From the NCBI RefSeq assembly GCF_037975245.1, contig NC_092575.1, forward strand, positions 945,001-1,009,000: a stretch of 64,000 nt of DNA, given 5' to 3'. The number at the start of each line of letters is the position of its first letter. Positions within the stretch are counted from its first letter, which is position 1. Both the position numbers and the translations under genes were made by a program. Below, one piece after another: positions 90-56,329 of the stretch. A model generated the notes under the pieces. That model was not told the origin of the DNA. It saw only the letters and a program-made list of their open reading frames with translations, and made no database searches. The DNA is from Apostichopus japonicus. Taxonomy: Eukaryota; Echinodermata; Holothuroidea; Aspidochirotida; Stichopodidae.

Positions 90-296
90 AATCACTGTTG
101 CTGTGTGCTCCAAGCCACACAGCAGTTGATGGTTCAATAAGACGATAGACAAAGTCATTCTCCATCGGCGATGAAATCGTAACAAGATCACTTCTTTTAG
201 TTTTGCGACATGTTTTCCGAGCCTGTCGAAAGTTCTTTTTCTCCGGATGGTATTGATAACAACTGGTCATGAAAGGAACAAAACCGGCCGGGCACT
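90..296 (-). CDS. Exon: N-terminal half of a C-type lectin domain
   Basis: A 207-nt phase 1-1 exon. The translation starts CPAGFVPFMTSCYQY, then has a helical stretch with RKTCRK, an LVTISS strand with ENDFVYRL, and VWLGAHSNSD just before the GTAAGC donor. These are the long-form CTLD landmarks: the C0 cysteine pair, the first core cysteine, and the WIG-like WLG. The acceptor is a pyrimidine-rich tract ending CAG. The domain cannot fold from this exon alone, and its second half (EPN/WND region) must be outside the window. The intron position matches that of the split CTLD at 53034-56329. Confidence 0.85.
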
Positions 297-3200
297 CTGT
301 TTTTGGAAGAAAGAAAAATGATGCAGGAAGTAAAAATAGAACCATCAACTAAAAGAGGCAACACGATATCTAAGAGAAGTTCAAGCAAATGACTGTAAGG
401 GTGGGTGGCTTAACATGAAAAGCGAAATATAGGGCGGTGGAGTGTGGGTGGGTGGGAGAGAGGGTTAGAGTGGAGTGGCACTTCTTTGGTCGATAATTGG
501 GCATATCTAAAAGTCCAACGCTTAAGGTACATATCAAATGCAACAAAACAGTTACCTGTACAAACTCGCTAGAAGAACTCAATGACTGGCTAACCCTATC
601 GGGCTCAACAAGGAAGTGTTAGCGAAGTGATGACATACCCAGTGGGAAACCTATAGTGGATTTCAGGTATTAACATATCAACCCTATCCCCGCCCTCTCC
701 CTCCACCCTATACAATAAATGAAACTGTAAAAGATAACTGCGCTAAAAACGCTACTTTGATTGTCGTAACATTTAAATCGTATAGCTAAACAATACTGAA
801 ACAACATGCAAGCATATTTTTACTTGACCGGCGCATTCATCTTCATTCATAGTGTAACGTAACGAGGTGAAGTGATTTGATATTTACTTTTGTAACATTC
901 CTTATTTTTTCTGTCTCTCACATAGCCCTTCTTGCAATAACACGCACGTGATCCTTGTTTTGTCTTTGTACAAGCTTGTAACTCTCCGCACCCGTGGTCC
1001 TCACAGACCAACGTCCCTGCGTCACACGTACATCTTTGAGAGCAGTCACTGGTAAGGAATGTGGATCTTGACTACCAACATGTGAAAAATGATATTACAA
1101 AATACTGTTATGTTTTATCAGTGCCAAAGCGAAACTCCTCACCTCACACTCCCCAACACACCAAAGCTAAAAAACAAAACAATATCCAATATTAAATGAA
1201 ATTTCGGTATATACTATTAAGATATATTTGTACGTCTGTCGTAAGTTAAATTGTATTTTTAAATCACCCGTAGATTTCGTGTTAATTCCGTAATATTTTA
1301 TAATTATATGATGCTTTTATCTCTCGTTTTTGAAGCACGTAAATAGTGCGTTACACCTGATACGAACGTTACGAAATATTTCAGATCAAACCAATTCTGA
1401 CGCAATCATTTTGTGGACCATCATAAACACGTCATTCCAAAATTTAGTATGCAAATGAAGATACACCTGATAAGTGAGATTGATGTATCGACGCTTAGGA
1501 AGTAAAAGTCGGGGAGGGGGTTGGAGGGGCATGGGGAGGGGGTATGGGCATGGGGGATGGGTAGGGGCATGGGGGAGGGGGATGTACAATATCGATTACA
1601 CATGCTTTCTGTGGATTGTTTGATTTCACTTTGGTAAAGTCTTTATTTATCGAAAAGTAATCCAATAGGCCCTCTCTTAAGTCACTATATCTTCGTGTAT
1701 CGATATGCGAGGAAGTTAAACGTAGAATGCATCACTTGCTACGCCACCAACGAGATCTTTCGTCAAGTTAGATTATGCAGACAATGATTTATCAGTTGAA
1801 TTTGAGAAGATCAAAAACAGCAAGAAGAAAAATAATGCTCAACTCACAGGAATTCGTTTCCCTTCTCCGATGATACAGTCAGGTAAACATTCTTCCTCTG
1901 ATTCCGCTAGAGACGAAGAAAACGTTCCAAACACAGAACAATCTTTAACAGGTTACTTAATAGTGCGTGATACAGGGGATGTTTGAGTGCATATGTAGGA
2001 CAGAGACAGGTAAAAAGAGGAGTTAAGTAAATTCAGTTACTTCATTGCTGACTTCACAAGAACTTTAAAACCAACAATATTCTAGTAGATTATAAATGAG
2101 TCTGGAATTACAGTTGTAAGCTTTGAAGATGTTAGATTTGGAAGGAAGTGGACGTTGACCATGAAGTATTAACATTATAAAATGAAGACAGGTAAGAGAG
2201 GGGTGCAGTAAATATGATATAAATAAAGCACGGTCCACATGCTAAGACACGTTCACCTGTTAGCAATATAAAGCAATATTCCGTACGAATTTGTGAAATA
2301 TTCCCCCCCCCCCCCCAAAAAAAAAAAAATGAAGAGTCAGATTCGAGATACTTAGGCCTACTTAACGCTATTACTAGAATAACAGAACATTTCGCCTATT
2401 CATTTAAATGCAAATTAGCTTACCTTTTAGCCTCATTCAATGAGAAACCTGCACAAGCTCAGTTCACTGTGAATATTGTTGATTTTTTTTTCAACGGTAT
2501 TTACTCTATATCAGTTGTGTATGACAAGTAAATTGTTTGTTTGTCATGCATATTTGAGATAACGCAACACGACGCTCACGTTAACTGACATACCCAATAT
2601 GATATCACAATATAAGTGACACGATGAACATGATAGTGGAGGTAAAATTGTCTCTCTGGCTTGCGATTGGACGTGATATTAATAACTAAAATGTTCAATA
2701 TTTTACCTCTTTCGACGAAAACATGGAACAGACAGCTTTCGATATTTTCTGCCTCATCGATGAAATCGTAGTACACAAGATGGCCGTCCTCCTCGCTTAA
2801 TGGGAAGCTGTCTCCAGAATGGAAGTTTTGCTCAAACAGGTTGGCCGTTGACACTTTATCCTCGGCCGTTGGCTCCGGCCATGTAGCTGTCGCTTCCGTT
2901 GCCGAGTCACATTTCGGTATCGTAAGATGAATATCATCCGGGCAGTAAGTTATGACAGGTCCGACTAGATCCGCTGAGATAACACAGCCATACAATCAGT
3001 CATTGAGGTATAATGAAAGAAGAGGCAAGACATGTAATTGTAAGAGGGCGAAGAGAGGAAGAGAAGGGAGGTGAGGGAGGGGAGGGGAGGGAGGGAGGGA
3101 AGAGAAGAGAAGGGGAGAAGAGAGAATGGGAGAGAAGAGGGGACAGGGTCCAGGGAATAAGACGCATATCATCAGGGCAGTAAGTTATGACAAGTCCGAC

Positions 3201-10145: not shown

Positions 10146-10284
<139 letters not shown>

Positions 10285-37400: not shown

Positions 37401-40400
37401 TAAGCAACAAATGTATTTACGATGCCAGCCTCTGAACTTGTTTAGAACTTAAACACATACTTCTTTATCAAAAGTAAAATGTGTTTAATCAATCACAAAA
37501 TACGAAGTTGCAGGCATTGGATAGTCTTGTAATCACCGTCCTCGTTTCATTTCTCTCTTAACAGACGTACCGATCGCTGATCAAACACCTCAGGCCATCA
37601 TAAGAGGAGCTAATGTGAATATGAGATTTACAGACACTGATCCATACGACGCCATGGTTGATACCACTGTTGTCTTCAATGTTGGTTTCAGCAGCTACTC
37701 CGACTCCATAAGAGGTGGAACGCCTCTCTGGGTTCTGAGACTCTTTGCTAGTCAATACGAAAATGGCACGGGAAACCAAAGAGAACTGTCAGCGCAATTG
37801 CTAAACAATGATCAGATGTCATATGGCGTCATTCCTGGAAGACAGTTCCAATTTTCGGGTGGAGAAAGGTAATAATTAAACAGCTTCCTAACACATCTAT
37901 ACATGGTATTTTACTTTACTGGATGAACGTCATTCCGTTTATTCAATGTAACTTTCGTATGCAATTACACGAATTATCAAGAAGTAGTATAAACAATTTC
38001 GAACCAAATTTATTTCGCCTGTTTCTCACAGCATCGATTTCACTGAGATGGGTCCGGGATCTGACTTTCCTTACATCTGTGCCTCATTAGAGAAGAACCC
38101 TGATGCGGACATGGAACTCGTTTTGGGGGAAGATGATACTGTCACGGGATGCCAGGCTCTACCAAAATGTAAGTATGAGTCATCCATCTTTTCCACGTTT
38201 AGTCCTTGTACATTTTGGCATGAAGGACGTGGCCACTTCTCAGCATTAATTTTATATGCGTAGATTGTATTTGACTTTAATGAGTAAACTAATTAAGGAA
38301 TCCACAAAGCTAGTTCTTCCAAAATGAAATTCTTAGTTCGGATGAAAAAAATTATGGTCAACTTACATCAGTGAAGAAAAAAATCATTGATGAAAATATG
38401 AATTCACAACGTTGCTTCATGTTTACGTGATTGACTTCACAGCTTTCAACATTGAATATTGTCAAAGAACTGAAATGAGAGCGTGAACATGACGATGTCA
38501 GAATTAAATAGTGAATCTTTTTTCAATCATTTCGAATGTTATCAACAATATAATTCGATCGGAAACTTTTGTAGTTTATTTCTCTTTCTTATTTTCAGTT
38601 CGACAACGACCACGTCCTGTTGTTGGTAAGTAACACTTTTTCTTCAACATTCGAAGGTTTCATGTCAATGCATGTTACTCTCGATAAACAAATAAAAAAC
38701 GTTTTCACTAGATATTAAGTACAGGTAATGATCCTATTTAGCACGATTCCGATACCAATTGGATATGAAATTAGTTAAAAGTTGATCATCAAGAGGACGT
38801 GAGATTAGTGTCAGGATGAAATTGCAGGAAAACATTCCCTTTTTCTGCTCACGAAATGTAGATGTTGACTTCAAAGACGACTCTCAGGCAAGACTATGGG
38901 TTATGTAAGTCTTATTTCAAGCGTTTCATGGATCCACAAGAGTCTCACCTATCATCCTTTTGCAACAAGTAAAAAACAATAGCCTCTCTCGTTCTCTTCA
39001 TACATCTCGGGGATAAATTGTGTTGGTAACATAAACATGTAATGCTACTTCTGTCGACACAGCATTGGTGTTTCCTATATATTTCTATTTTAAGCAACAA
39101 ATGCATGTACGATGCCAGCCTCTGAACTTGTTTAGAACTTAAACACATACTTCTTTATCAAAAATAGAATGTGTTTAATTAATCACAAAATGAGAAGTTA
39201 CAGGCATTGAATCGTCTTGTAATCACCGTCCTCGTTTCATTTCTCTCTGAACAGACGTACCGATCGCTGATCAAGCACCTCAGGCCATCATTAGAGGAGC
39301 TAATGTGAATATGAGATTTACAGACACTGATCAATACGACGCCATGGTTTATACCAGTGTTGTCTTCGATGTTGGTTTCAGCAGCTACTCCGACTCCATA
39401 AGAAGTGGAACGCCTCTCTGGGTTCTGAGACTCTTTGCTAGTCAAAACGAAGATGGCACGGGAAACCAAAGAGAACTGTCAGCGCAATTGCTAAACAATG
39501 ATCAGATGTCATATGGCGTTATTCCTGGAGGACAGTTCCAACTTTCGGGTGGAGAAAGGTAATAATTAAATAGCGTCCTAACACATCTATACATGGTATT
39601 TTACTTTACTGGGTGAATGTCATTCAGTTTATTCAATGTATATACGAAATACCAAGAAAGTAGTATAAGCAACTTCGAACAAACTTGATTTCGCATGTTT
39701 CTCACAGCATCGATTTCACTGAGATTGGTCCGGGATCTGACTTTCCTTACATCTGTGCCTCATTAGATAAGAACCCTGGTGCGGATATGGAACTCGTTTT
39801 TGGGCAAGATGATACTGTCAAGGGATGCCAGGCTCTACCAAGATGTAAGTATGTCATCCATCTTTTCCACGTTTAGTCCTCGTGAATGTTGGCATGTCGG
39901 TCGTGGCCACTTCTCAGCGTTAGTTTTACTGCATATATTATACTTGTCTGTAATTAGTAAACTAATTAAGGAATCCACAAAGCTAGTTCTTCCTAAATGG
40001 AACTTCTTAGTTCGAATGAAACCAATTTATGGTCAACTTACATCAGTGGATAAAAACTATTGATGAAAATATGAATTTACAGCGTTGCTTCATGTTTACG
40101 TGATTGACTTCACAGCTTTCAACATTGAATATTGTCAAAGAACTGAAATGAGAGCGTGAACATGACGATGTCAGAATTAAATAGTGAATCTTTTTTCAAT
40201 CATTTCGAATGTTTATCAACAATATAATCCGATCGGAAACTTTTGTAGTTTATTTCTCTTTCTTATTTTCAGTTCAACAACGACCACGTCCTGTTGTTGG
40301 TAAGTAACACTTTTCCTTCAACATTGGAAGGTTTCATGTCAATGAATGTTACTCTCGATAAACAAATAAAATACGTTTTCACTACATATTAAGTACAGTA

Positions 40401-43400: not shown

Positions 43401-46400
43401 TCACATCAAGCACGTCCAGTTGATGGTAAATAGCAACTTTGACCTTCTATGCTCACTTTGTTATTAACTTGATGCTTAATTACCTTTGCAACTCGTTTGG
43501 CAACCATATTATACTTTTGTTTCGAATTATTCAAATATTTGTATCAAGTTTGTTATATCATAATCCAGATATGAAATTACATGAGATGGACACTGATGGT
43601 ATATTGACCTTTTTAACCTTTACTAGCTATGTATGATTTCATGCAAAATTTAAGTACTTTCGTTCTGCCTGATATAGAGTTTAACATAACATCAACAACA
43701 ACAATAATACTAATAACGTTTAACACAAAACGCCAAGGCTGACAATTGCTTCTATCCTTTTTCTTCTGTTTTTTTAATCATACAGGTCTTCCTTTGAGTC
43801 AGCAAGTTCATCTGGTGCAACATAACACAAGAATCAGTACATCCCGTGCTGATCCTTCGAGCAACGTGATGGTTGCAACAGTGCAATATCTTCTGAGGTT
43901 TCCGCCATCTACATACATCTTCGCGGGGGATAATCCTCTTTGGCTACTGGAACTTTTTGCAAGTCAAAATGATGATGGAACGGGCTCAAAGAAATTGATC
44001 TCTCCCCAGCTTTTAGACCATGAACAAATGTACGAAGCCGTTCAGCCACGAGATGTGATAAGTTTCACAGCAAGTGAAAGGTAAAGGTGTTTGTACTATT
44101 CCAGTGTCAAACCTTGTCCAGTGCTTGATATACTGTATGTGCCATAGACCACTACTGTTGGGGAAGACGGGAGGTGGAGGGGGAGGGGGCAATATAGGGT
44201 GGTCAGTGTGTGAAAGGAAAAGGGATAACTTTTGTTCTCATTGATCATGTATTTTATTTATAATTCTTTGTTGCATGAAAAGTTATTTTCTATTTGGGCG
44301 GAGTTTATTTCTTGTCAGACAAAAGGTAACAAGTTAGTTAGTCTAACTCTCCTAAGTATTTTGAAAAGTGTCGTAGCTGCATACATATAAAAGGTGAAGG
44401 TCGATAGATGCGGACATTAGAAGTCCCTCTCTCCGGATCCATTGTATCTTTCCGCTTAAAATTTATGATAGTATTTCAGAATTGTTATCAAACAGTTGTT
44501 AATGACTAAAACTCCAAAGCAAAATTGTCTAGAACGCCTCGTGTGTCACAATTAATATAACCATGCATGCGGCATTGCAATTACAAATTTCGTTAATCCT
44601 CTTTGCACCAAAGCTTTGAAGCAGATGAAATTGGAGCTGGTACGGATCTGCCTTACATCTGTTCCTCACTTAACTCTCATCCTCTAGCAAATTTCGAATT
44701 GATCAATGGAGAAGACAATTTCATAACAACATGCGAAGAATTGCTCTTGCGTAAGTCTTTACATGCTAACATCACACAGAAAATGTATAAAGTATCAAGT
44801 CAAAACACACGTAAGACAGAGAGACAGCTCATTATTGCTCTTAATTTTTTTTAAGTAGCTTAACTGTTCTGTATTAGCTATTAGAATTAGCTGAATAAAC
44901 CGAGATCGGTATTGCACTGAAGGAGAAAACAAAATTAGACCATGAATCGGATGGTAGTTACAATGATTTCACTCTAGGTGTTACAGCTTCAAGCAGCACC
45001 AATTACATGCCTAATTGATATGGTCTTCGCCCCAAAAATGTAACCGCTATGAAAGTATTATTCAAGCAATATATGCAAAACAATCTTAGCAACGTAGGCC
45101 CATTTTTGTACTTTCTACCACTAATATCGCAACCGAAGCAACACAAGTTGTTTTCTAAAGAGTAGGCACATTGTTACGTAATTTCATCCCATTTATGGTA
45201 AATTTAACAAATATTCTTATTTTGTAGCTCACTCGCTCAGCCAAGAGGAAGAACAACATGCAGAAGGTATTGAATCTTTGTTGTATTGTTCATAAAGAGC
45301 CAACGATTGATTGATATATGTATATTCTACGATATCCGATTGAAGTGAACTTTGTCTCATGTTAGAGATACATGTAACTGTATATGTTCCTCCCAGAAAC
45401 AGAGCCTGCACCCCCAGTATTGTAAAAAGAAAAAACACAAAGTTGCCTCTTCTCTTCATAAATATGAAGTGCCCATTTGATAAAAAAGTGCCCTTTTGTA
45501 GAAATAATTACAACATAACAGTAATTTAAAGTGTCCTGTGGTTGAAAAATTACGAAAAATTGTAATTAAAAAGTTCACTTCGGTTGAGAAACACTCAAAT
45601 ACTCGAATTAGCGAATGGTAAGCGGAATTAGCAGCCTCCAAATCAAAGTCATAAGTGTCAATGCTCCTCGGAGTTTGTGCCCCTTCCCCAGGATCAACCC
45701 TCTTCGGCAATCGCCGCAAGGGAGGAAAAGAAAAATTAGCTTACAGTATTTGCCCATGAACACGTGACTCGATTTACGAACACAAGATATTACTCTCACA
45801 TTGATACAACAGCATCCAAGACTGCCGCATGCCGTATATGGGGTGATCCTCATCTGAAATCATTCGATGGCTATGGACATTCTTTTCAAAACGTTGGCGA
45901 ATATGTCGCCGTGCAAACTTGTAAAGATGACGAGCGAACGGTTCCGACGTTTCAGTTGTCATTCGAAACATTCCGAAGGCGTCCATCAATACCAGTGTCA
46001 TATATTCGAGAGTACACACTGAAATACAACGGCGAAGTTTACGCATTAACTCACCCGAGTAAGGTTTCCGTAAATGGCGTGACAGTAACCTTACCCTTCA
46101 CAGATCACAACGGCGTCAGGGTACATTATGCTGCACCCCATCAGGTAAACATTCTTGTACCCCATCAGGTGCCGGCATTAATTCTATTTAATGCCCGTAT
46201 TAACTATATTTAATGCCGGTATTAATTCTATTTAATACCGGTATATAACAAGCTCAAAATTCGCTAATGTGAATGGCCTATTTAATGCCGGTATTAATAC
46301 TATTAAATACCGGTATATATATACCATTTAATGTCGGCATATATTCATTTTCATGTTTTGATACCGGCATATAATTTATTTATTGCGGGCACATAATGTA

Positions 46401-49400
46401 TTTATGAAGGATATAAATGCTTTTTATGTCCGTATATATTAAAATTAATACCGTTCTTTAATTTGTTGAATACTGGCATATGAAGCTGCATGGTGATTGG
46501 CTGATAACTAATGTCGGTATTAAAAAGAATTAATACCGGTAATAATTTTAATTCATACGGACATTAAATCGCTAATTATTTCCCGTATGGCCTACCATAA
46601 ACGGTTACTGCAGTAAGATTCGATGGATGTCGTTTGACGTAGCCTGTATATGTTGCGGGTTTCCATAGATGTCATCGGTAGCTATGACGTAACAACCAAT
46701 AAGGTCAAATCAAGCTCTTCCAGGCTCGAAAGCTATATTTATGGGTCATCTTGAAGGATTTTTTAGGGTCTTATAGTTTCTAAAAATCCATGTTTTATTA
46801 ACGCTTTAGATCCTTACCACCGATTTTGGTTTAGTCATCCGTCTGGACAATCTACACAACAGTGACGTAACGCTTACAGATATATTTATGGGCAAAGTAT
46901 GCGGACTCTGTGGAAACTATGACATGGTTAGAGGGAATGAATGTCATTACAGGAACGGAACACAGGTGAGGTATTAATCAGCTATGCAAAGGTTTAACTA
47001 TGGGTATAGTCTCTATGTTAGCTCCTACAAGAATTCAATCATCTGAAGAGTTTGTGCTCATAATTTCCATGTTAGTAAACAGTCTCTAAGATATCACCTC
47101 CCCCCCCCCCTCCGTCCCCTCCCCGAAGAGTAACGGATATGTAAAAATTAGATACTCGATAACAACCTTGTCTTTGTTATGTAATTAAAAAACATATTCA
47201 TGGAAGGAGTAAAGTTAACACAAAAGCATGTTGGAAATACAGATTCGAGAATATAAGTAGATCAGGTAAGGTTTGAAGCTGCTGTTTATTTATTTGTTTG
47301 TTGTCGTGGTGTTTTTGCCCTTCATGAGGTCTCTAACTGACTACGTACAGAAAGGTGTTAAGGGAGCACTCCCATTCCCATTTGTTGTTGTAACTGTTGT
47401 TGTTATTGTTGTTATTTAACATCTGTTCTCGAATAGAATGAACTCTACGCTCTAAAAACCATTCAAATGTGATTCCATGAAATGCGTGCAAGAGGGCAAG
47501 GGAATTTAGGCGTCAGCGTAACATATATGTTGGTATTACAATATTAAGGTCCATAATATCAAATTAAAAAGTTTGGTTTATTGCTTGAACAGATGCAGCG
47601 TCGAAATGAAGAATGTAAACAAGTTTTCGTCAACGAATGGACTGATGAAACTCCAGACCTCCCTTACCCAGAGCACATTAAAGATTTTAGACCATGTGGA
47701 GAAGGTTCTACCCTGTATGATGAGGCTACTACACACTGTGGCATATTAAACGATCCCACAGGTACAAACATCACATGTATAGCGCTGTTGTTGTTGTTGT
47801 ATGAATTACACATGTTTTATGTACAGTTAATAATATTGCGTAGTGTTGTCGAGTTGCATATTATGTATCATTTTGTACAGTCTATACATCCTATGCTCGA
47901 CTGGTTAACACCTCAGCACCAGCAATAAACATGTTCCCAATTTACACGTTATGTCATCAAGTCTGGTATATCCTTAAACTCCCAACTACTACTCTCGTAA
48001 TACGACCATGCCCCCTGCCTTTACATCAATAACGTGAATGTATCACCATAAATATATTTTCATCATAAGTTGACAAGCATAGGCCTATATTTAAATATAT
48101 TAAAGCTCACAAATTGTAAATGTGCATGGTTATTATCTTAATTTATCAACAAAATTGTGGTATTTACCAGCTTTCTAGCTTAACCATATGTTTGCACTTT
48201 AACTCATACAGTAAGATATATTTCAAAACTATTGTGGATTCCACAGGTCCTCTTGCAAGTTGCCATCCATACGTAAGCCCAGATATATACTACAACAACT
48301 GCGTGTTTGATTTATGCCAGCTTCTTCCTTCGGCATCATTCTTGTGTGGTAGTGTGGAAGCCTATCTTTACGAATGTGTACAGGTTGCTGGTGAGAATGT
48401 ACAAGTTGGAGATTGGAGAAATTCTACACAACAATGTGGTAAGTCTACCGATATGCAATAAGGCGCATGTGTACTTAATGTACGAATAGAGGTACAGATA
48501 CAATCAATACTTGGAAACGGGCACGCGCACTGCGAATATCCGGATATGATACAGGTTACACCACACGTGTCATATCGCAACGAGAATTATCCTTCAATTG
48601 GACTAATAAACCGCTTTTCATTTGTGTCTATGCTTCATATACGTTTTGTCACGTGAATTAATTCCTATACTCATCTTTGGTCAGTTGAACACCTCCACAT
48701 AATGAAAAGTTATTACAATATTACTTGTATGTTACTCATGGCCCCCGTAATGCCTCCGAGACCCTGATCTGTGCCGCCTCCTCCCCCTCCCCCCCCCCTC
48801 CCTCCCCCAACACGTCAACTATCTCTCATCATATCTATACTTAAATGCTATCATACAAACACACATTTCAGATCTTCTCAACTTTATCACAACAGAACCA
48901 CAGTGTTCAGAGAACATGGTTTTCGAGAGCCGCGGGAGTGCCTGTCCTCCTACCTGTGCAGATCCAGAGGGTGTTCGAGAAGACTGTCCCTTCTCCTTTC
49001 TCGAGACTTGTGAATGTGCTGAGGGTATGGTATTAGATGGTACTGAATGCGTACCTGTGGAATCCTGTGGGTGTAAAATGGACAATGGGGTATATATTTC
49101 GGTAAGCCATTTTCTTAAGTTCTCTTTTCATTCTTCGTGTGGAATAAAGACCCATAAATCAACGATGCCATTTCAGCCGTATGTTTATTAAAGTAGAATC
49201 TCTCTATCAGTGACTATTAGCCCGAAAACCCTAAAGGAACGACAACACATGTCTTGCTACCTTGGATGTTTAGGTAACTTTGTGCCGTATACGTTACATG
49301 TAGATATGTCAATATGTGAAGATAGTGTTATTTACCATTTATCCAAACAGATCATTTTTCCGCTTCCTAAACTCTTCTGTAATTTCCGACACGTACCAGG

Positions 49401-52400
49401 TACCGAAAACATTCGACGCGGTCTCGCTGCCACCCCCCCCCCCTAAAAAAATTGTCCAAATAAGGATATACAACATACCGTCGTGCACACATAACACAGT
49501 GATAGAATTAGGCCGCTTACATCATTACTTACATTACACTTCAGACAGGCTTGCCGAGAGGGGGAGGTAACAGCCCCTGGGTCCGTGTTAATTAGGGGAC
49601 CGGAGACATGCGGGATTGACGTTAATGTATTCTCATACCTCTGTGAATGTACCATATGGGTTTATAGGATGACATACATGTCTCTCGAAATACTTTCTGT
49701 ATGTTAGCAACTCTTTTTATTCTCGTTCTCTTAAATAAAGGTTGGAGAAGAGTTTATGTCCTCCAATTGTTCGGAGTTATGTACGTGTGGTGAAGTATCT
49801 GGTTTAGTTTGCATATATCCTGTGACGTGTGCTGACAATGCCATGTGTGGCGTAAAAGGAGGACAACGAGACTGTTACTGCCAAAAAGGTTACGTGGGTA
49901 ATGGAAGATACCAGTGTATGGATCAAGGTATATACACTTTCTCATTATAAGGTGGTAGGGAACAGGATTCCATACTCAACGGGGCAGAATCATATTCTGC
50001 TTGCAAATTTGGAGGAGCCAGTCCATCCTTCAGTTTTACCTTGTGTGGGAAACAAACGTATATGAACACCCCTCCCTTCTCCCCAAATAGAATCCCAGTT
50101 TACCTATTTATAATTCTTTTCGGTTCTATAGGGTTTTAATCCCCTACCCCGACAGAATTTACCCCCCCCCCCTCCGAATGAGGTGGAACAACCCTCTCGG
50201 CTAACTTTTGAAGATTACCTGTTTACGTCATAGGTGGTAACTGTTTATTCGTTTGAGATATCAACATCCAATAAGTCATCCAGTTTTTATTTGAGATATG
50301 TTTATTTAGTTATTTTTATTTTATTTTATTCATTTTTTGGAGTAGAATACAAAACTTGCAGGATTTATGGCGACCCCCATTTCCTGACGTTCGATGATGT
50401 CTTCTACTCGTTCCAGGGGGGTTGTGTATATACAGCTGTTCATACGTGTAGACCTCTATCCAGAGGTGCGCCTCCCTTCCGAATCGTTATAAAGAACGAA
50501 AGATTGATCCCGGAGGAGAAATACACTTACACAACAGTTGTCCAATTGCTGTTTCAAAGTAAGGCCTACCGAATGGCTTATACTGGTCGTGTCACCGTGG
50601 ACGGGATAGTCATGGACAGCCGTTTGCCTTACTCAGACGAGGAAACTGGTATTGAGATATCAAGAAATGAAACGACCTTGGTACGTATCAGAATGGTTCC
50701 CTCGAGGTTATCAAGTTATTCATTTTACATATTGTGGTAGCGTCATCAAAAACTAGTCAGTCGTGCCTCATGCATGGTATAGTGGGATCAGTTATTTCAC
50801 CGAGCATATAGGTAATCAGGAGAATAATGTCTATTACTTACGAAAATACGACATATGTAAGTGACAGTTGGGGCAGGTGTAATGGAGTCGGTGGCATGGT
50901 GCTTATAGAAGTGATATGTTATCTGGTTGAAATGTGGCTCAGTGAATAACAGTATCGGTACATTTCGTATTATATATAGCCAAATCATTTAGACATATAT
51001 TATGGCTGTTACTATTATTACTATTATTGCTGTTGTTATTGTTATTGTTACTGATATTGCTACTGTTAATGTTATGTACTATATTTGGGAGCATATTAAT
51101 CATGTGCTGGATGCTATATGAGCCCTTTTCAGTTTGTACCATATTTGGGGGACATAAAAACGACACACATACAAGTTTATGATGATTAGTTTAACTTCTA
51201 TTGCGCAAACTCAAAAATCACTTTTTCATATTAAGTTACTTATATCTATGAATCTTCTTTGCATTAACAGTACCTTCGAAGTGTCTTTGGATTGGAAGTC
51301 AGCATCAGTAACGACAATGCACTAGCTATTAAACTACCCTCGGCATATTTCGGTAAAGTATGCGGACTATGCGGTAATGCTGACGGAAATGACGAAAACG
51401 ACAAAATGTTGCCAAATGGAACTTTGGTGAGGTTCAAGCTTGTGGGTTATTCACTAGATATTAATTTCATCTTCATAGCTTGTCTGACAATTGTCACTCT
51501 TTTTGGTTTTCAACACTTCCTTTATTGAAAGAAGAACCGTTTGGTAAGATGATACGTTTCGTCTGGTCTGTCTAACGGGACTATATTTCCAGGGGGTGGA
51601 GGAGAGGGGGGGGGCTTTCTCACTCTCCTTTTTATTGGTAATAAATAAATAAATTGGTAAAATAATGATAAATATATTTATAGGCTACTTCGATCATCGG
51701 GCCATATCTCAAATCGCAAATGTTATGCCGTCTGTTGTGATTTTTTATAAAATTATATCAAAACTATAATAGCTGTTTTCATGAAATATGGATAATGAAA
51801 TGGTACTTGTTTTACATATATAGGGCAAGAAACTACCGTTTGCCAACTCATGGGCTTTTGGCCAATGTGTTCCATTGGACGAGCCAATTGAAAACTGTGA
51901 AGATGGGAGTGATGATTATGCAGAGGCTGTAGATTTGTGTAATGAAATCATACGGAAAGATGGTAAGAATTAAAAGTTCTACTTTACAATAACGGAAGTT
52001 AAGTAGGGGCGGAGGAGCCGGGAATAAGATTTAGAATGCATGCCCCCCCCCCCCCCCCACCGAGGCATAGCAATAGGGGTTTCATTGAACCAAGTCCCCA
52101 CTCAAACCTGGAAGTAAACTCTATAGAAACAGAGTACAGTAAATTTTCTATATATATATAAATAAAATATAGTTAATTCTTTTCACACGTTTTCTTTGTG
52201 ATTCAGTGTCTACTAACATTATCCTTTTGTCTATAGGTCCCTTTGCATATTGTCATGACTACCAAAGTCCCCTTCCATTCTTTCACTCCTGTGTCTTCGA
52301 CCTGTGTGGGAACTTGCCTGACACGGAGCTCTTCTGCGCAAGCGCTAATCAGTACGTCCAGGCATGCGCAGATAAAGGAGCAGGAACAGGTCTCGACTGG

Positions 52401-55400
52401 AAGAAGGATGTCCCTGCATGTGGTATGTGCCAATACTTCAATTAAACATATTGAACACACGGGGCAGGGGGGGGGGGGTGACATACACCGTCCGTGAGTT
52501 TGTGAGTGAGTGAGCGGGTGAGTGTGTGGGTGAGTGAGTGAGTGAAAGCGATATGCAGCTTTAAATTTCACACTGACTTAAGTTTGTTTACAAAAGTCAG
52601 TTGTGTGACATTTATTACGTTTACTGTTTTAATAATATCAAGTATTTATTAATTTTAGCCATACAGATAATTTGACAATCCATGCAGATAATGTGCAAAG
52701 GTGTATTTCATATTTCATGTTATTCTGAATTTCACAAAATCTGATAGTAACATACTCGATCGTTAATAAATTTCCTACCTGATAACGTAATGTAAATATA
52801 TTTACCCCACCCCCACCAAAACAGAATTGCACCAGAAACGTGGTTGAAAATTAAACATGAAGACATATATTAATTTTAATATAAAATCAGGGTATTGTTG
52901 TTACCAAATACTCAAATTGAAATGAGAATTATTCAACCCCCCCCCCCCCCCACCACCACACCACACCAGATTCTCCTGCTTACAAGTGTCAAAATGTCCT
53001 CCATGAAAGCAAAATGTTTTATCCATTTCACAGCGCCGGTAGATTGTCCAGAAGGGTACACGCCATTTAAGCGGTCTTGTTATAAGTTTTGGAGAATTAA
53101 GAAGAATTTTGAGGATAGCAAATCGTTCTGTAAGGTGAAAGGGGGACATTTAGTGACCATCACGTCTCGAGAGGAAAGCGATTTTGTATCTGAACTAGCT
53201 GGGACACGACGAGTTTGGATCGGAGCCGAACGCAACTTCTCTGGTGAGTGGCAATAGTAATAAATCTTCAGTAGATAGTTCATATAGACAACGTTGCTAT
53301 TTGTTCCCAATTATTATTACAGAGAGAGCATGAGGTTTTAGCGGACTCTTCTCTGTTTTACCATTTGTTTATCTCGCACCCAGCCCCCCCCCCCCCCCAC
53401 CCCCCGGCCCTTCCTATAGAAAAAAAACATTAAATATGGCTATAAGGTTGGTCAAGTTACCATTGGACTGCAGTAATACCCTAAAATGGAGGCTAATAGC
53501 AAAATGTTCTATATACCATTACAGATTTTATGTTTTCCCTCTTAAAAATACGGCAAATTTGACCGTCTAAAAACTCTAAATATTGTCCTTGGTTCAGTCG
53601 GGGACTAATGACAGTCGTTGGGTTCATATACATTCAGTCGGGGAACAATTAGACCACTCCTCCACGCCCTGGACTTCCTTTCAAAAAGATTCATGCCCCT
53701 GACTAGATCAGTTAGGGAATTTAGAATTTGTCCCTCCACCTTTGAAATCCAAACATGTGCACAGCACTGTACGTACTGTTTTTAACATGGTTGTAATCTT
53801 CGTACCAATTTATAGCTTATTCAGCAATGTTACATCTTATTCAAGAAAATAAAAATATGTCGATCTTCAACATCAATATGATCAGAGACTAGTTTGTAGC
53901 TAGTCTGTTCCAGAAAGAACAGTTCGCGGAACTACCATGCTATGGCATAGACACTATCCATTTGTAGTGCACACTAAACTACGGCCGAATCCGAAATTTC
54001 ACCAGATGTTAATGTATCGAATAACTATGAATGATAAATTCCGATGATATGTTGTCTGCTGTTTTGTGACAGTCTTTGTATTGAAGCATTATAGTATGAA
54101 AAAATTGAAATGTATCATGAAACTTACCCGCAGAAATGGACGAGGCACAACGAATGATGGAAGCTGAAACTTTTATGGGCGGATGTTGGTATGTGCATTT
54201 GGTATAGGCTGCTGTTATCTCATATTCGTTGTCAAGTTCGATATTGTTTTCTATTCACCAGCTTCGTTCCAGACGTACAACTCCTCCGGTGATGATTCCT
54301 ACACGTTTCTACCGGATCGTATTCCCAGAGGCATTGGGTCTATACGGTTCAGTATAACGGCACGGAGTGACGCATACATCATACTGAGCCCAACAATGGA
54401 GCCAGACGAACACACACCTGTGTATGAAATTGGTAAGGCCTAACAATGCGAACTTTTGGGGATTATTCCAGTGCACGTGCGCGCTACAATATTGGTATTA
54501 CTTGCCAGGTGAACGATACCTACTTGACTAGACTTTCAAACTTACAGTTTCATATAGTCTCTGTACGTTTGCAGTTTCAGAGGCTAGCTGCGCAGGCAAC
54601 TTATTATAAGCCTGTCATGGCGCTCACAAGCGCCCTCACTTTGTATCGGTACCTACATGACTATACTTCCTGGTGTGTTGTCCGCCCAAACAATAACACC
54701 ATGAACAACCGAAAATTTCTTCCTAATACTTCAAGCACTCCACGCGCACTACAATAATGCGTAGTTGCAGGCAAATGCAGTTCTAGTTTCAGTTTGGTTT
54801 TGGGACATTTCACGTATACTTAGTGCTGTCGTCTTTGTACTTTATGTAACATTGGTACCTGTAAATCACGCCCTCATCACCTGACCAGAATCCACATACA
54901 CTGTGATCGTGTGTCATGGTATTCTGTAGGGCAATGGTATGCAGAAGTGCATGCAGGTTCAAGTTTTCGCATTATTCATAAAATAAATGCAGGCTTTGCT
55001 TATGATTATCCGCCACCTTTAACAGGAACTATAGATTTATGGCGATGGCAGCCAACTCAATAAATGTATACATCATATCATGGAATCCTGCAGTAACTTA
55101 ATCCGTACTTTACATTTTATGGATTCTTACAGCAATCGGAGTTAACAGGAGAAATTTCATCAGAAGGTGCATGGATTGTCCAGAAGAAGATTCAGAGCAG
55201 AAATACCTTCTGGGGGCAAATACCGAACAACGTTTCTATGTCAATTTTCGCGATGGTAACGTCCGCGTTGGTCGTTATACAATACGAAATATAAACCTTC
55301 ACTTCATTGATCAAAATCCATTCCGTGTGTATTATGTGGGATTCAAAACGGTTGGTGAAGCAGGCACGTGGAAATTCTTTGACAGTAAGTTACTCCATCG

Positions 55401-56329
55401 CTTTGTCTGTTATATATTAATGAATGCACTGGTTTATAGTAAGTAATGGTAGTCCACAAGCATAAAATGTAGCACTTACGAGGGCTGATTTTTGTTCACA
55501 TTGTGAGCTGGAAGTCTATCCGAAATGCCTCTTAATTAATGTGTCCCTTACTGTAGATATAAGTGTTTGAAAACCTTTATAAGGTCTTCTACGTGATTAC
55601 TGGGTCTCAGTGGGGTGGAGGTGGGGTGAGGGTGGGGTGTTACGTCATTATACTGTCCAAGTTGTTGAACTTTCCCTTTGTACTATATTGTTACAAAATA
55701 TTTGCTTTAGCTGTTGTTGTGCTTGGAATCCATTGCTTCCACGTCCATTTTCGGTAACTAGGGACACGCCAGATATCAAACCTATATCTCAGACATATCA
55801 AAGAAGAACAGTTTTAAACCCTACAGTTTAACAATATAAAAAGGGGACTTCGAACCTGGCTTAGCTATCAACACGAGGGACATTGAGATCAAACCTAGCC
55901 TAAAGCTATCACCAAAAAGAAAGAACATGTTAATCAAATCCGTCGCTTTGCTATCTAAACGAAGACCATGAGGATTGAACCTGGCATAGTTATTTACAAG
56001 AAGTTCATGAAGTTGTTTAAATATCTAGTAGATGGCTCACCTATATAGCCTTGCTGTAACTAAAGCAGCAAAATACTCACCCCCAAAATGAACGAAAGAC
56101 AGTCGGATTGACGTTGGGAAACTTAAATTTCAGACGTCTTTACTTTTTCCTTTCAGATGACTTTATGTGGCTGACTTCCGAGAGATGGAGTTATGACAAT
56201 TACCGATACGGAGAACCCAGTAACTACGACGGACAAGAGAATTGCCTAGAGACTAATTTCGATTCCAAGATTGGAGCTTGGAATGATCACTTCTGTAATC
56301 TCAAAAAGTCGTTTGTTTGTGAGATTTAA
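10919..56329 (+). CDS. Giant secreted protein: 17 repeat domains, two VWD-C8 sets, CTLD with inserted Methyltransf_FA
   Basis: I joined 63 exons. Every junction is GT-AG, phases match throughout, and the summed length of 10,764 nt is exactly 3,588 codons including TAA at 56327-56329. Order: signal peptide (10919-10976), 17 A+B domains (15339-45266, with 14 linker microexons), VWD1, C8, TIL, VWC/EGF-like, VWD2, C8, first CTLD half, Methyltransf_FA (two exons), second CTLD half. VWD-C8-TIL sets are typical of mucins, von Willebrand factor, zonadhesin and other secreted gel or adhesive proteins, and they often multimerise by disulfides. The C-terminal lectin suggests carbohydrate or pathogen binding. 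No transmembrane segment follows the signal peptide, so the product should be secreted. The repeat domain is not one I recognise. The copy number could be affected by assembly of near-identical units. Confidence 0.88.
12172..14013. mobile_element. Cluster of hAT-like termini, partly nested or interleaved
   Basis: CAGTGGCGGATCCAGG at 12172 is a lone terminus. CAGTGGCGTAGCTAGG at 12606 pairs with an inverted copy ending at 13901; flanks TACACGCA and ATAACGCA match at 5 of 8. CAGGGGCGGATGCAG at 13692 pairs with an inverted copy ending at 14013. The last two pairs overlap without nesting, so at least one has been rearranged. The motif AAGCGGAGCGCCA with its inverted partner occurs near 12690 and 13735, and in related form near 17755 and 20597. 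Confidence 0.6.
13186..13415. mobile_element. Foldback (inverted-repeat) element
   Basis: The left arm (ACACTCTAAAAACAAATGAGTGG...) is an imperfect inverted copy of the right arm (...GTGAAATTCACCTATGTTTTTATCAG). The middle is filled with smaller palindromes of ACTCCTAATATGAGT and TGATCACTC type. It could form a long hairpin and looks like a foldback MITE. Confidence 0.65.
15339..17037 (+). CDS. Repeat domain 1 (exons 15339-15612 and 16904-17037)
   Basis: The first and most diverged copy. The A exon contains LWRSELYASREDTG and YQLLDHEQAS, matching LWVLRLFASQNEDGTG and QLLNNDQMS in later copies. The B exon has the two conserved cysteines (HLC and TIC). It has no linker microexon. Phases 1-2 then 2-1. 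Confidence 0.82.
16105..16460. repeat. AT microsatellite and short tandem repeats in an intron
   Basis: TA dinucleotide runs are mixed with AGCCGATATATA units, then a tandem series of AAAAAGCCGATT and AAAAAGCTATT, then a second copy of GATATATATTAAAATGCTGT. It lies in the intron between the two exons of domain 1. Confidence 0.85.
17524..17877. mobile_element. MITE with CAGGGGCGTCGGA ends
   Basis: A 354-bp element starts CAGGGGCGTCGGAGC and ends with the near-complement GCTTCCGACGCCCCTG. CAACT lies on both sides, so the target duplication is 5 bp, or longer and decayed. A palindrome GCGCCAACCATGGTGGCGCG lies inside. It sits in the intron before repeat domain 2. Confidence 0.68.
18313..19656 (+). 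CDS. Repeat domain 2 (exons 18313-18619 and 19520-19656)
   Basis: The A exon carries VWRMMLFLSPHQDGSG and RQLLNTNQAS. The B exon carries GPGTAYPYVC and AITC. The acceptor is ambiguous: CCCAAG then TCCAAG gives two in-phase AG sites 6 bp apart (18313 or 18319), so two residues may be optional. No linker exon follows. Confidence 0.83.
19111..19182 (-). tRNA. tRNA-like gene or tRNA-derived SINE head (anticodon UCA)
   Basis: 72 bases on the minus strand fold as a tRNA. The acceptor stem has one mismatch (GCGTCCA with TGGAGGC). The A box is TAGCCTAGTGG and the B box is a perfect GGTTCGAATCC. A 5-bp anticodon stem TCCGC/GCGGA closes a 7-base loop reading GTTCAGA, which would place UCA at 34-36. 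UCA would read UGA, and the size is wrong for a selenocysteine tRNA, so a tRNA pseudogene or SINE promoter is more likely. It lies in the intron between the two exons of domain 2. Confidence 0.6.
19372..19422. repeat. (AT)n microsatellite
   Basis: About 45 bases of TA repeat downstream of the tRNA-like element. A similar but shorter TA tract lies on its other side near 19047, suggesting that both flank one inserted unit. Confidence 0.85.
20396..20694. mobile_element. hAT-like MITE with near-perfect 8-bp target duplication
   Basis: It starts CAGGCGCGTAGCCAAGG and ends with the inverted CCTGGCTACGCGCTTG. The flanks are TGTGTTGT before and CGTGTTGT after (7 of 8). 299 bp, no coding capacity, poly-G and poly-C subterminal runs. 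It lies in the intron between domains 2 and 3. Confidence 0.75.
20808..21875 (+). CDS. Repeat domain 3 (exons 20808-21105 and 21739-21875)
   Basis: The A exon includes VWQIQMFASQHDDGTG and SQQILNPDQMA. The B exon includes GLGSDNGLPYMC and ITTC. Closer to the later copies than domains 1 and 2. No linker exon. Confidence 0.86.
22396..23459 (+). CDS. Repeat domain 4 (exons 22396-22702, 22862-22998, linker 23433-23459)
   Basis: The first member of the recent array, P subtype (DPYDTMVDTSVV). It begins EMLQIADQ where later copies have DVPIADQ. The B exon reads SIDFTEMGLGSDFPYIC. The 27-nt linker encodes FQQRPRPVVG. Confidence 0.9.
24094..25148 (+). CDS. Repeat domain 5 (exons 24094-24397, 24557-24693, linker 25122-25148)
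   Basis: P subtype (DPYDAMVDTTVVFNV, RGGTPLWVLRL). The B exon has LGKDDTVTGC where most P copies have LGEDDTVTGC. Linker FQQRPRPVVG. Confidence 0.9.
25781..26828 (+). CDS. Repeat domain 6 (exons 25781-26084, 26234-26370, linker 26802-26828)
   Basis: Q subtype: DQYDAMVYTSVVFDV and RSGTP in the A exon; EIGPGSDFPYIC, LDKNPGADMEL and FGQDDTVKGC in the B exon. The linker acceptor is TTTTTAG instead of TTTTCAG. Confidence 0.9.
27461..28504 (+). CDS. Repeat domain 7 (exons 27461-27764, 27914-28050, linker 28478-28504)
   Basis: Q subtype like domain 6, with ADRTPQ in place of ADQTPQ and NPGANMEL in the B exon. Confidence 0.9.
29136..30199 (+). CDS. Repeat domain 8 (exons 29136-29439, 29603-29739, linker 30173-30199)
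   Basis: P subtype with FASQYENGTG (the usual motif is FASQNEDGTG) and VIPGRQFQFSGG. Nearly identical, introns included, to domain 9. Confidence 0.9.
30831..31895 (+). CDS. Repeat domain 9 (exons 30831-31134, 31298-31434, linker 31869-31895)
   Basis: P subtype with FASQYENGTG. Its A exon, B exon and the intron between them read the same as those of domain 8, pointing to very recent duplication or gene conversion. Confidence 0.9.
32525..33567 (+). CDS. Repeat domain 10 (exons 32525-32828, 32978-33114, linker 33541-33567)
   Basis: Q subtype, with the same coding sequence as domain 12, which lies exactly 3,365 bp downstream. First half of the duplicated dimer. Confidence 0.9.
34200..35260 (+). 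CDS. Repeat domain 11 (exons 34200-34503, 34667-34803, linker 35234-35260)
   Basis: P subtype with FASQYENGTG. The B exon ends LPK, not LPR, and the linker reads FRQRPRPVVG. Both changes are shared only with domain 13. Confidence 0.9.
35890..36932 (+). CDS. Repeat domain 12 (exons 35890-36193, 36343-36479, linker 36906-36932)
   Basis: Q subtype, the copy of domain 10 in the second dimer. Confidence 0.9.
37565..38625 (+). CDS. Repeat domain 13 (exons 37565-37868, 38032-38168, linker 38599-38625)
   Basis: P subtype, the copy of domain 11 with the shared LPK ending and FRQRPRPVVG linker. Confidence 0.9.
39255..40299 (+). CDS. Repeat domain 14 (exons 39255-39558, 39708-39844, linker 40273-40299)
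   Basis: Q subtype with ADQAPQ at the start. The A-exon acceptor follows CTCTGAACAG where other copies have CTCTTAACAG. Linker FQQRPRPVVG. Confidence 0.9.
40932..42000 (+). CDS. Repeat domain 15 (exons 40932-41235, 41399-41535, linker 41974-42000)
   Basis: P subtype (DPYDAIVDTTVV, FASQYENGTG), last of the homogeneous array. The linker changes to FQQRPRPDVG. Downstream intron similarity to the other units stops just after this linker, marking the array edge. Confidence 0.9.
42437..43425 (+). CDS. Repeat domain 16, diverged (exons 42437-42734, 42858-42994, linker 43399-43425)
   Basis: Still alignable (IAEQSPQAIVRGANVNIRF, LWMLRLFASQNEDGTG), but the B exon is changed (FTDIGPDSEFPYIC, NFADASAVTGC) and the linker is FSHQARPVDG. 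Introns no longer match the array. Confidence 0.9.
43786..45266 (+). CDS. Repeat domain 17, diverged (exons 43786-44080, 44614-44750, linker 45228-45266)
   Basis: The A exon has LWLLELFASQNDDGTG and PQLLDHEQM. The B exon has GAGTDLPYIC and ITTC. The linker exon is longer (39 nt, acidic, SLSQEEEQHAEG) and leads into the first VWD domain. By its LLDHEQ motif this copy is closer to domain 1, as expected for old copies at array edges. Confidence 0.87.
45813..47761 (+). CDS. VWD domain 1 (exons 45813-46144, 46810-46965, 47593-47761)
   Basis: Starts with the VWD signature CRIWGDPHLKSFDG, then HSFQNVGEYVAVQTC and TLKYNGEVYALTHPSKVSVNG. The second exon gives KVCGLCGNYD, the conserved CGLCG motif associated with disulfide exchange in VWF-type multimers. 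The third covers the tail up to the C8 domain (FRPCGEGS, THCGILND). Phases 1-0, 0-0, 0-1. Length is normal for one VWD. A second donor 24 nt downstream of 46144 duplicates the first (see findings). Confidence 0.93.
46170..46570. repeat. Intronic array of ACCGGT-centred palindromes
   Basis: Variants of TTTAATGCCGGTATTAAT and TTTAATACCGGTATATA repeat irregularly over 400 bases between the first two VWD1 exons. The core ATACCGGTAT is self-complementary, so adjacent units can also pair. Not a recognised transposon. Confidence 0.75.
48247..48438 (+). CDS. C8 domain 1
   Basis: A single 192-nt phase 1-1 exon with the C8 cysteine pattern: LASCHPYVSP, NNCVFDLCQL, FLCGSVEAYLYEC and QQCG. It follows VWD1 as in mucin-type assemblies. 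Confidence 0.92.
48896..49101 (+). CDS. TIL (trypsin-inhibitor-like cysteine-rich) domain
   Basis: A 206-nt exon, phase 1 to 0. It encodes QCSENMVFESRGSACPPTC, ETCECAEGMVLDGTEC and ESCGCKMDNGVY, the usual TIL order C..y..C...C..tC, C.C..G.v.....C, C.C. It acts as the structural connector of VWD assemblies. Inhibitory activity is not implied. Confidence 0.9.
49741..49927 (+). CDS. VWC/TILa-like and EGF-like segment
   Basis: A 187-nt exon, phase 0 to 1: GEEFMSSNCSELCTCGE, VCIYPVTC, then MCGVKGGQRDCYCQKGYVGNG. It corresponds to 888-1071 (minus) in the neighbouring gene. Confidence 0.88.
50343..51962 (+). CDS. VWD domain 2 (exons 50343-50680, 51271-51426, 51824-51962)
   Basis: CRIYGDPHFLTFDDVFYSF opens the domain. 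The second exon has KVCGLCGNADGND. The third has SWAFGQC and a cysteine-bounded tail before C8. The exon phases (1-0, 0-0, 0-1) are identical to VWD1, so the two assemblies arose by duplication. Confidence 0.93.
52237..52422 (+). CDS. C8 domain 2
   Basis: A 186-nt phase 1-1 exon: FAYCHDYQSP, HSCVFDLCGNLP, LFCASANQYVQAC, PACG. Unlike the first set it is not followed by TIL: the next exon in phase is the CTLD. Confidence 0.92.
53034..53243 (+). CDS. First half of the C-terminal C-type lectin domain
   Basis: A 210-nt phase 1-1 exon: DCPEGYTPFKRSCYKF, SKSFCKVKGGHLVTI, EESDFVSEL and VWIGAERNFS. It carries the C0 pair, the first core cysteine and the WIG motif, then stops at GTGAGT. Its partner is at 56157-56329. 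Confidence 0.9.
54262..55384 (+). CDS. Methyltransf_FA-type domain inserted in the CTLD (exons 54262-54432, 55133-55384)
   Basis: Two phase 1-1 exons (171 and 252 nt). Recognisable features: IRFSITARSDAYIILSPT, VYEIAIG, FYVNFRDGNVRVG, DQNPFRVYYVGFKT and AGTWKF. This is the pattern of the Pfam Methyltransf_FA family (PF12248), named after crustacean farnesoic acid O-methyltransferase. No methyltransferase SAM-binding motif is visible, so I expect a binding or structural role. Both exons can be skipped without changing frame, which would restore an ordinary CTLD. Confidence 0.82.
56157..56329 (+). CDS. Second half of the C-type lectin domain and stop codon
   Basis: The last exon: DDFMWLTSERWSYDNY, then YGEPSNYDGQENC, AWNDHFC and SFVCEI followed by TAA. 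WND and the remaining core cysteines are present. The usual EPN/QPD triplet is EPS, so calcium-dependent sugar binding may be altered. The final Cys near the terminus pairs with the first-half Cys in known CTLDs. Confidence 0.9.

Follow-up and report, generated by a model that had tools for sequence, protein, structure and literature searches.

Can one protein domain be inserted whole into a loop of another and be maintained there? The question is raised by a locus of the sea cucumber Apostichopus japonicus that lies in a 64,000-nucleotide stretch of DNA (the window; contig NC_092575.1, here C15, positions 945001-1009000). In this locus, designated locus A, a C-type lectin domain (CTLD) is divided by a Methyltransf_FA domain (MFA, Pfam family PF12248). 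A first-pass annotation of the window had read the CTLD as cut after WIGAERNFS, with two phase 1-1 exons forming an MFA between the halves. The exons, their GT-AG phase-1 introns and the Pfam profiles all agree with this reading. At the level of genomic sequence locus A is confirmed as a real nested-domain lectin, with one predicted domain in a loop of another.

The nested lectin and its recurrence

The three introns of locus A are all GT-AG and phase 1, and both MFA exon lengths are divisible by three. Pfam analysis of the spliced protein together with the preceding exon gave a C8 domain (47.6 bits), Lectin_C in two stretches (69.2 bits) and, between these, Methyltransf_FA (63.0 bits). Searching the exons with PF12248 and PF00059 had been proposed as a check by the annotation, and both families score above their Pfam cut-offs. 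With the insert left out, the two lectin halves together reach 74.3 bits over positions 2-106 of the 107 in Lectin_C, as expected of the canonical lectin that had been predicted; the scores of the separate halves, and of the insert on its own, are given in Table 1. In the PDB, the chains with the highest whole-chain scores against the joined lectin come from the mannose-receptor family (PLA2 receptor, lymphocyte antigen 75). The insert starts six residues past WIG, and the alignments taken with a published description of the CTLD (PMC7618208, cited, like the other papers below, from part of its text) place it in the loop after the WIGL strand.

The joined CTLD and the MFA insert each served as queries against the genome (671,581,487 bases in 35 contigs), and local profiles were then run over the loci found. 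Six loci, A-F, carry the first lectin half (CTLD-a), the two MFA exons (MFA-1 and MFA-2) and the second lectin half (CTLD-b) in this order on one strand; five are on C15 and one is on C17. Thus the architecture, consisting of domain halves around an in-frame insert and recurring in relatives, is present in the sequence of 6/6 loci. All 18 introns between the four exons are GT-AG and phase 1 in models built from reading frame and consensus, and CTLD-b reads to a stop codon at each locus. The nesting is therefore stronger than was claimed: there are six loci, a single host intron position and phase 1 throughout.

The spliced nested proteins score 47.6-69.2 bits with Lectin_C against a Pfam cut-off of 22.6. 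With Methyltransf_FA (cut-off 24.2), the scores for B to F are 85.0, 110.9, 67.9, 26.4 and 42.8 bits respectively, the Pfam scores of locus E being those obtained with the shorter of its two candidate acceptors. A profile made without E and F gives 17.1 and 33.7 bits for the MFA exons of E, and 20.1 and 52.3 bits for those of F. Six is a lower bound for the number of nested loci, as E and F escaped the PF12248 genome search at E 0.001. That search produced 17 exon-level matches, four of which belong to A-D; beside the other 13, no CTLD half was found at an independent E-value (iE) <0.5 in about 1.5 kb of flank each, and halves farther away are possible. Locus E was at first taken from tblastn as insert-free, an impression that was withdrawn when the profile search revealed its MFA exons. 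A further candidate at C23:10.09 Mb was rejected, no MFA match being present there. A short match in locus B, GFEISNPGGGWKFF, was discarded; by eye it lies within an apparent tRNA-derived repeat.

The CTLD alignment of the six loci has sixteen invariant columns, six of them cysteines. The WIGL strand reads WIG or WLG in A, B, C, E and F, and WLL in D. Both CTLD halves would be needed, because the usual CTLD disulphide pairing puts one bridge across the two sides of the insert and one within the second half. The MFA has an invariant CxxC pair, conserved in 9/9 aligned domains (A-F and three free ones). Comparison of the six loci pairwise in four regions showed that the non-synonymous proportion was lower than the synonymous in 60/60 region-pair comparisons. 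Synonymous differences between nested loci are 0.65-1.06, which is saturated, so the Ka/Ks value is unusable as a ratio. The inserts of E and F have 18-24% amino-acid identity to that of A per exon. Judged from these sequences the insert is old, and constraint has preserved its protein sequence, less tightly in E and F.

The residues of the sugar site differ among the copies. A, B and C have EPS, an acidic E and WND; D has KPS and WVD; E has EPN and WSD; and F has EPD and WND. All six of the nearest insert-free relatives have EPN. By these residues, calcium-dependent sugar binding would be feasible for A-C. A tunicate lectin with EPS reportedly binds galactose. Loci A, B and C, unlike D, E and F, have an N-x-S/T sequon (NFS, NSS, NTS) immediately ahead of the insert, at window 53234-53242 in A; a glycan at this site could mark the entry to the insert.

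The host intron and the origin of the insert

Fourteen insert-free CTLDs at 12 other loci have an intron at the equivalent point, and in 13 of them the best splice pair is phase 1. These fourteen were the set analyzed; the PF00059 genome list (at least 151 matches, with 150 of 392 candidates scored) shows further split pairs. No MFA match was found on the same strand between the halves of the 14 (best 6.1 bits), and a 9.3-bit match at C3:14.556 is on the strand opposite to its insert-free CTLD. Fish CTLDs are likewise described as having an intron downstream of WIGL (PMC514892). The host intron is therefore taken as older than the insert.

Three free MFA domains, each in a single exon (two on C4, one on C9), have phase-1 sites on both sides, as judged by eye. 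They also have a cysteine near each end, and neither cysteine is present in the six nested MFA domains. This is a hint that the ends of the MFA lie close together, as insertion into a loop requires, and is taken as only a hint because three of the four C11 MFA copies examined also lack the end cysteine.

The CTLD tree was constructed from 26 rows (6 nested, 14 insert-free and 6 chosen single-exon CTLDs). A single branch (support 75/74) separates the nested CTLDs from the other rows, with one change, and does so in 72% of the 200 bootstrap trees; a shuffle test gave a value as low in 0/500 trials. A larger group of 12 (support 91/84) unites them with the six insert-free CTLDs whose tail is WNDHFC-like. 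The insertion probably happened once, giving the nested form a single inferred origin.

Other MFA domains were seen outside the nested loci. A 16 kb region, C11:2626961-2643169, has five further PF12248 exon matches with no CTLD half within 1.5 kb of each, which suggests an MFA-rich gene or array of another kind. Similar single-exon MFA domains lie 142 kb apart at C4:430095 and C4:571815, with several CTLD half matches 17-60 kb away. No close MFA relative was found in viral contigs. In prokaryote genomes there is one weak match of 22 residues with 61% identity, in a contig of a Latescibacterota metagenome-assembled genome (DPVW01000350.1, 3001-3066); this is a possible bacterial MFA relative.

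Upstream domains and surroundings

The domains upstream of the locus A lectin are in the order VWD-C8-TIL-TILa/EGF-VWD-C8 (Table 1). A cysteine pattern like that of the TILa/EGF unit is also found upstream of loci C-F. Upstream of B there is a C8, and upstream of C a TILa/EGF-like unit. From its sequence, D appears to have a C8, a TIL, a TILa/EGF, an HYR-like stretch and a second TILa/EGF; F has an HYR-like stretch, a long Ser/Thr-rich open frame and a TILa/EGF. At insert-free loci the TILa/EGF pattern was seen in 0/12, in flanks of at most about 1.5 kb and with almost none for five loci. Upstream domains of this kind are usual in secreted, gel- or matrix-forming proteins.

Elsewhere in the window (22332-42733) a segment of roughly 1.68-1.70 kb occurs 13 times in tandem, the last spacing being 1.50 kb. 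The coding stretches are 95-100% alike in most copies and other stretches are down to 64-75% alike. The translated domain of one copy matched no Pfam family, and the copy near 39224 has a stop in the aligned stretch that may be an intron. The last copy lies a short distance ahead of the first VWD (at 45830), and the array may represent the N-terminal portion of the locus A gene. A TA dinucleotide array of 68 copies occupies 10146-10282. The G+C content of the window is 38.3%.

Table 1. Nested lectin loci and associated features; positions without a contig name are those of the window.
Feature	Position	Strand	Evidence and remarks
Locus A CTLD first half, ends WIGAERNFS	53034..53243	+	phase 1-1 exon; splice sites; Lectin_C profile 2-46, 36.4 bits
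Host CTLD intron, 5' part	53244..54261	+	GT-AG, phase 1
Locus A MFA exon 1	54262..54432	+	171 nt, phase 1-1; insert on its own (with MFA exon 2) 65.3 bits with PF12248 (Pfam), profile 21-136 of 140
Intron within MFA module	54433..55132	+	phase 1; equivalent place at 6/6 loci
Locus A MFA exon 2	55133..55384	+	252 nt, phase 1-1; carries the CxxC common to 9/9 aligned MFA domains
Host CTLD intron, 3' part	55385..56156	+	GT-AG, phase 1
Locus A CTLD second half (DFMW...EPS...WND...CEI) and stop	56157..56329	+	terminal exon; Lectin_C profile 54-106, 30.1 bits; TAA 56327-56329
Locus A	C15:998034-1001329	+	nested CTLD/MFA
Locus B	C15:19798774-19794051	-	nested CTLD/MFA
Locus C	C15:20740812-20743909	+	nested CTLD/MFA
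Locus D	C15:925433-927361	+	nested CTLD/MFA
Locus E	C15:945296-942753	-	nested CTLD/MFA
Locus F	C17:5851457-5854496	+	nested CTLD/MFA
Locus E CTLD first half	90..296	-	cut at corresponding codon and phase; MFA and second half left of window, C15:944377-942753
C8 exon directly upstream of locus A CTLD	52237..52422	+	joins CTLD in phase; C8 47.6 bits in spliced protein
Second VWD and stretch into second C8 (locus A)	50357..51964	+	pieces 50357-50683, 51271-51429, 51854-51964, limits and joins by eye; VWD 109.4, C8 54.9 bits
TILa/EGF-like unit (locus A)	49735..49950	+	open frame; TILa 26.5 bits (cut-off 27), EGF_3 25.0 bits (cut-off 28.5), both slightly below
TIL domain (locus A)	48892..49074	+	aligned piece; TIL 39.2 bits
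First VWD and C8, several exons (locus A)	45830..48437	+	pieces 45830-46159, 46813-46968, 47557-47749, 48249-48437, joins by eye; VWD 93.6, C8 61.7 bits
TILa/EGF-like cysteine pattern upstream of locus E CTLD	922..1032	-	pattern match
HYR domain upstream of locus E	2706..2975	-	HYR 40.4 bits; limits approximate

Explanations and known systems

The best explanation, which is considered probable, is that an MFA module with phase 1-1 ends was inserted into an intron that the lectin gene already had, and that the resulting gene multiplied, its product being a C-terminal head. Most likely this head has two parts and serves in recognition, on a secreted protein of mucus-like or adhesive type. A complete MFA, in the form of a two-exon module, would have entered a phase-1 intron of a lectin. 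Because the host intron sits just past the WIGL strand, the insert would be placed at the entrance of the long loop region of the CTLD, where the calcium and sugar site is located, with the lectin cysteines and the downstream half retained. Duplication would then have generated at least six copies, in each of which the nested lectin forms a C-terminal head behind domains of a secreted type (VWD, C8, TIL/TILa, EGF-like, HYR or mucin-like). The MFA would provide a second binding surface beside the lectin's own site, the latter predicted to be calcium-dependent in A-C and doubtful in D-F. Both folds would be expected to form, and the product to be made and secreted. The MFA would bind a ligand, the two parts would cooperate and the head would serve a role in a tissue.

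A number of points weigh against this explanation. The splice sites were chosen by eye, at the genomic level, from reading frame and consensus, and the nested product is predicted from the genomic sequence. Locus E has two possible in-phase acceptors for MFA-2, the upstream acceptor of the first exon of locus C is not fixed, and one of the 14 insert-free CTLDs best fits phase 0. The support for a single nested-CTLD clade is modest. The MFA tree (15 rows, nine of which stand for the other 13 PF12248 matches after partial or duplicate ones were dropped) is poorly resolved; it requires two changes, with one change in 2% of bootstrap trees, and shows no single nested clade, though it is still compatible with one origin. 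No sequence relative of the MFA insert was detectable in the PDB: the best match was UNC5D at E 0.93 with the single sequence, and kinesin at E 0.081 with a nine-row profile. Both were judged to be chance matches, and neither serves as a structural template. Finally, a lectin function of D, E and F is doubtful because their sugar-site residues are altered.

The MFA exons might alternatively be a cassette that is skipped to give a plain CTLD and kept to give the nested form, the ratio being regulated. At 6/6 loci both exons have phase 1-1 boundaries and lengths divisible by three, and skipping both would keep the frame in every copy, as the annotation had stated for locus A. The skipped form of locus A scores as a complete Lectin_C, and insect FAMeT genes do use alternative splicing of entire MFA domains (PMC10015273). 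However, a skip that keeps the frame is expected from the insertion history alone and would apply equally to other phase 1-1 modules placed in phase-1 introns, and loss of one of the two exons would leave a partial MFA domain. The MFA splice sites look ordinary and the frames are open in 6/6 copies, which favours routine inclusion. A regulated cassette is unlikely. The interpretation offered by the annotation holds in part: its nesting stands, and its skipping switch is conjectural.

It is quite improbable that the insert is a passive spacer or a functionless relic tolerated by a permissive loop. The strong divergence of the E and F inserts, and the loss of sugar-site residues in D-F, would fit such a relic, but the frames are open, protein change is restrained over a saturated synonymous distance at 6/6 loci, and the CxxC is kept in all. 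Two neighbouring genes might also have been read as one, with an MFA gene inside the intron of a CTLD gene; genes within introns do exist, and splicing was read here from the genome. Yet strand, order and phases are identical at six loci, and at each junction the reading frame runs on between CTLD and MFA, with the MFA needing neither a stop nor a start of its own. Because the same order and strand recur at five other loci, it is very unlikely that the exons at 53034 and 56157 belong to different genes. That the MFA is an enzyme, a farnesoic acid O-methyltransferase brought to glycans by the lectin, is scarcely credible: the argument for it is the Pfam family name, whereas the MFA here is on proteins with secreted-type domains, and methylation of farnesoic acid has not been reliably shown even for arthropod FAMeT (PMC10015273).

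The nested lectins can be compared with known systems. CTLDs of the mannose-receptor family, and the fish antifreeze-like, group VII and EMBP CTLDs, are like the nested lectins in the WIGL strand, the cysteines and the WND region. In the latter three groups an intron occurs at a comparable position (PMC514892, the available part of which states no phase). What sets the nested lectins apart from all of these is a domain of about 140 residues that separates WIGL from the remainder of the long loop region. Arthropod FAMeT proteins (PF12248, often with DUF3421) contain the same MFA family and show alternative splicing of whole domains (PMC10015273), but their MFA is in tandem or beside DUF3421, whereas that of the sea cucumber is within another domain. 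CPAMD8 is named as an MFA carrier (PMC9363628), with no CTLD nesting in the available part of that text, and the available part of an abalone study names MFA and CTLD for different proteins.

The sea-star footprint proteins (Sfp1-8) are adhesive and contain vWF D, C8, TIL, EGF or hyalin repeats and a PF12248-type FAMeT domain in various mixes (PMC9382459). The domain mix of locus A, compared by domain description only, matches the Sfp mix of vWF D-C8-TIL with FAMeT. The role of the sea-star FAMeT was described as unknown, and its authors thought it possibly sea-star specific among adhesives (PMC9382459). The available text of that paper never uses the term C-type lectin, whereas the sea-cucumber MFA sits inside a CTLD; a split CTLD could have been missed in the footprint proteins. 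A more far-reaching version, put forward tentatively and rather unlikely, is that the nested head is a widespread echinoderm invention in which the first ligand-side loop was replaced by a second binding domain, the two sites acting together. The FAMeT domains of the footprint proteins would then partly be the same nested lectins, their CTLD missed because it is split, and the triad of A-C would have changed from EPN to EPS after insertion.

The annotation knew of no named protein with an MFA inside a CTLD, and none was found in an open-licence literature collection, which lacks most subscription journals; no protein-architecture database was covered. Among MFA-domain proteins, the oyster MFCP is said, according to the title of its report, to bind microbes.

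Since at least six gene copies share the nested build, their sequences point to an old, maintained kind of protein rather than a gene-reading error. Exon shuffling normally appends domains end to end. Here a symmetric module appears to have entered an intron inside another domain, and then to have survived, multiplied and kept its shape. With six nested lectins and fourteen relatives that lack the insert, a single genome provides a natural before-and-after series for a fold accepting a guest domain. The predicted position of the insert, at the ligand side of the lectin, bears on how binding specificity might be changed in one step, and split CTLDs of this kind may go unnoticed in annotations of echinoderm mucus and adhesive proteins.
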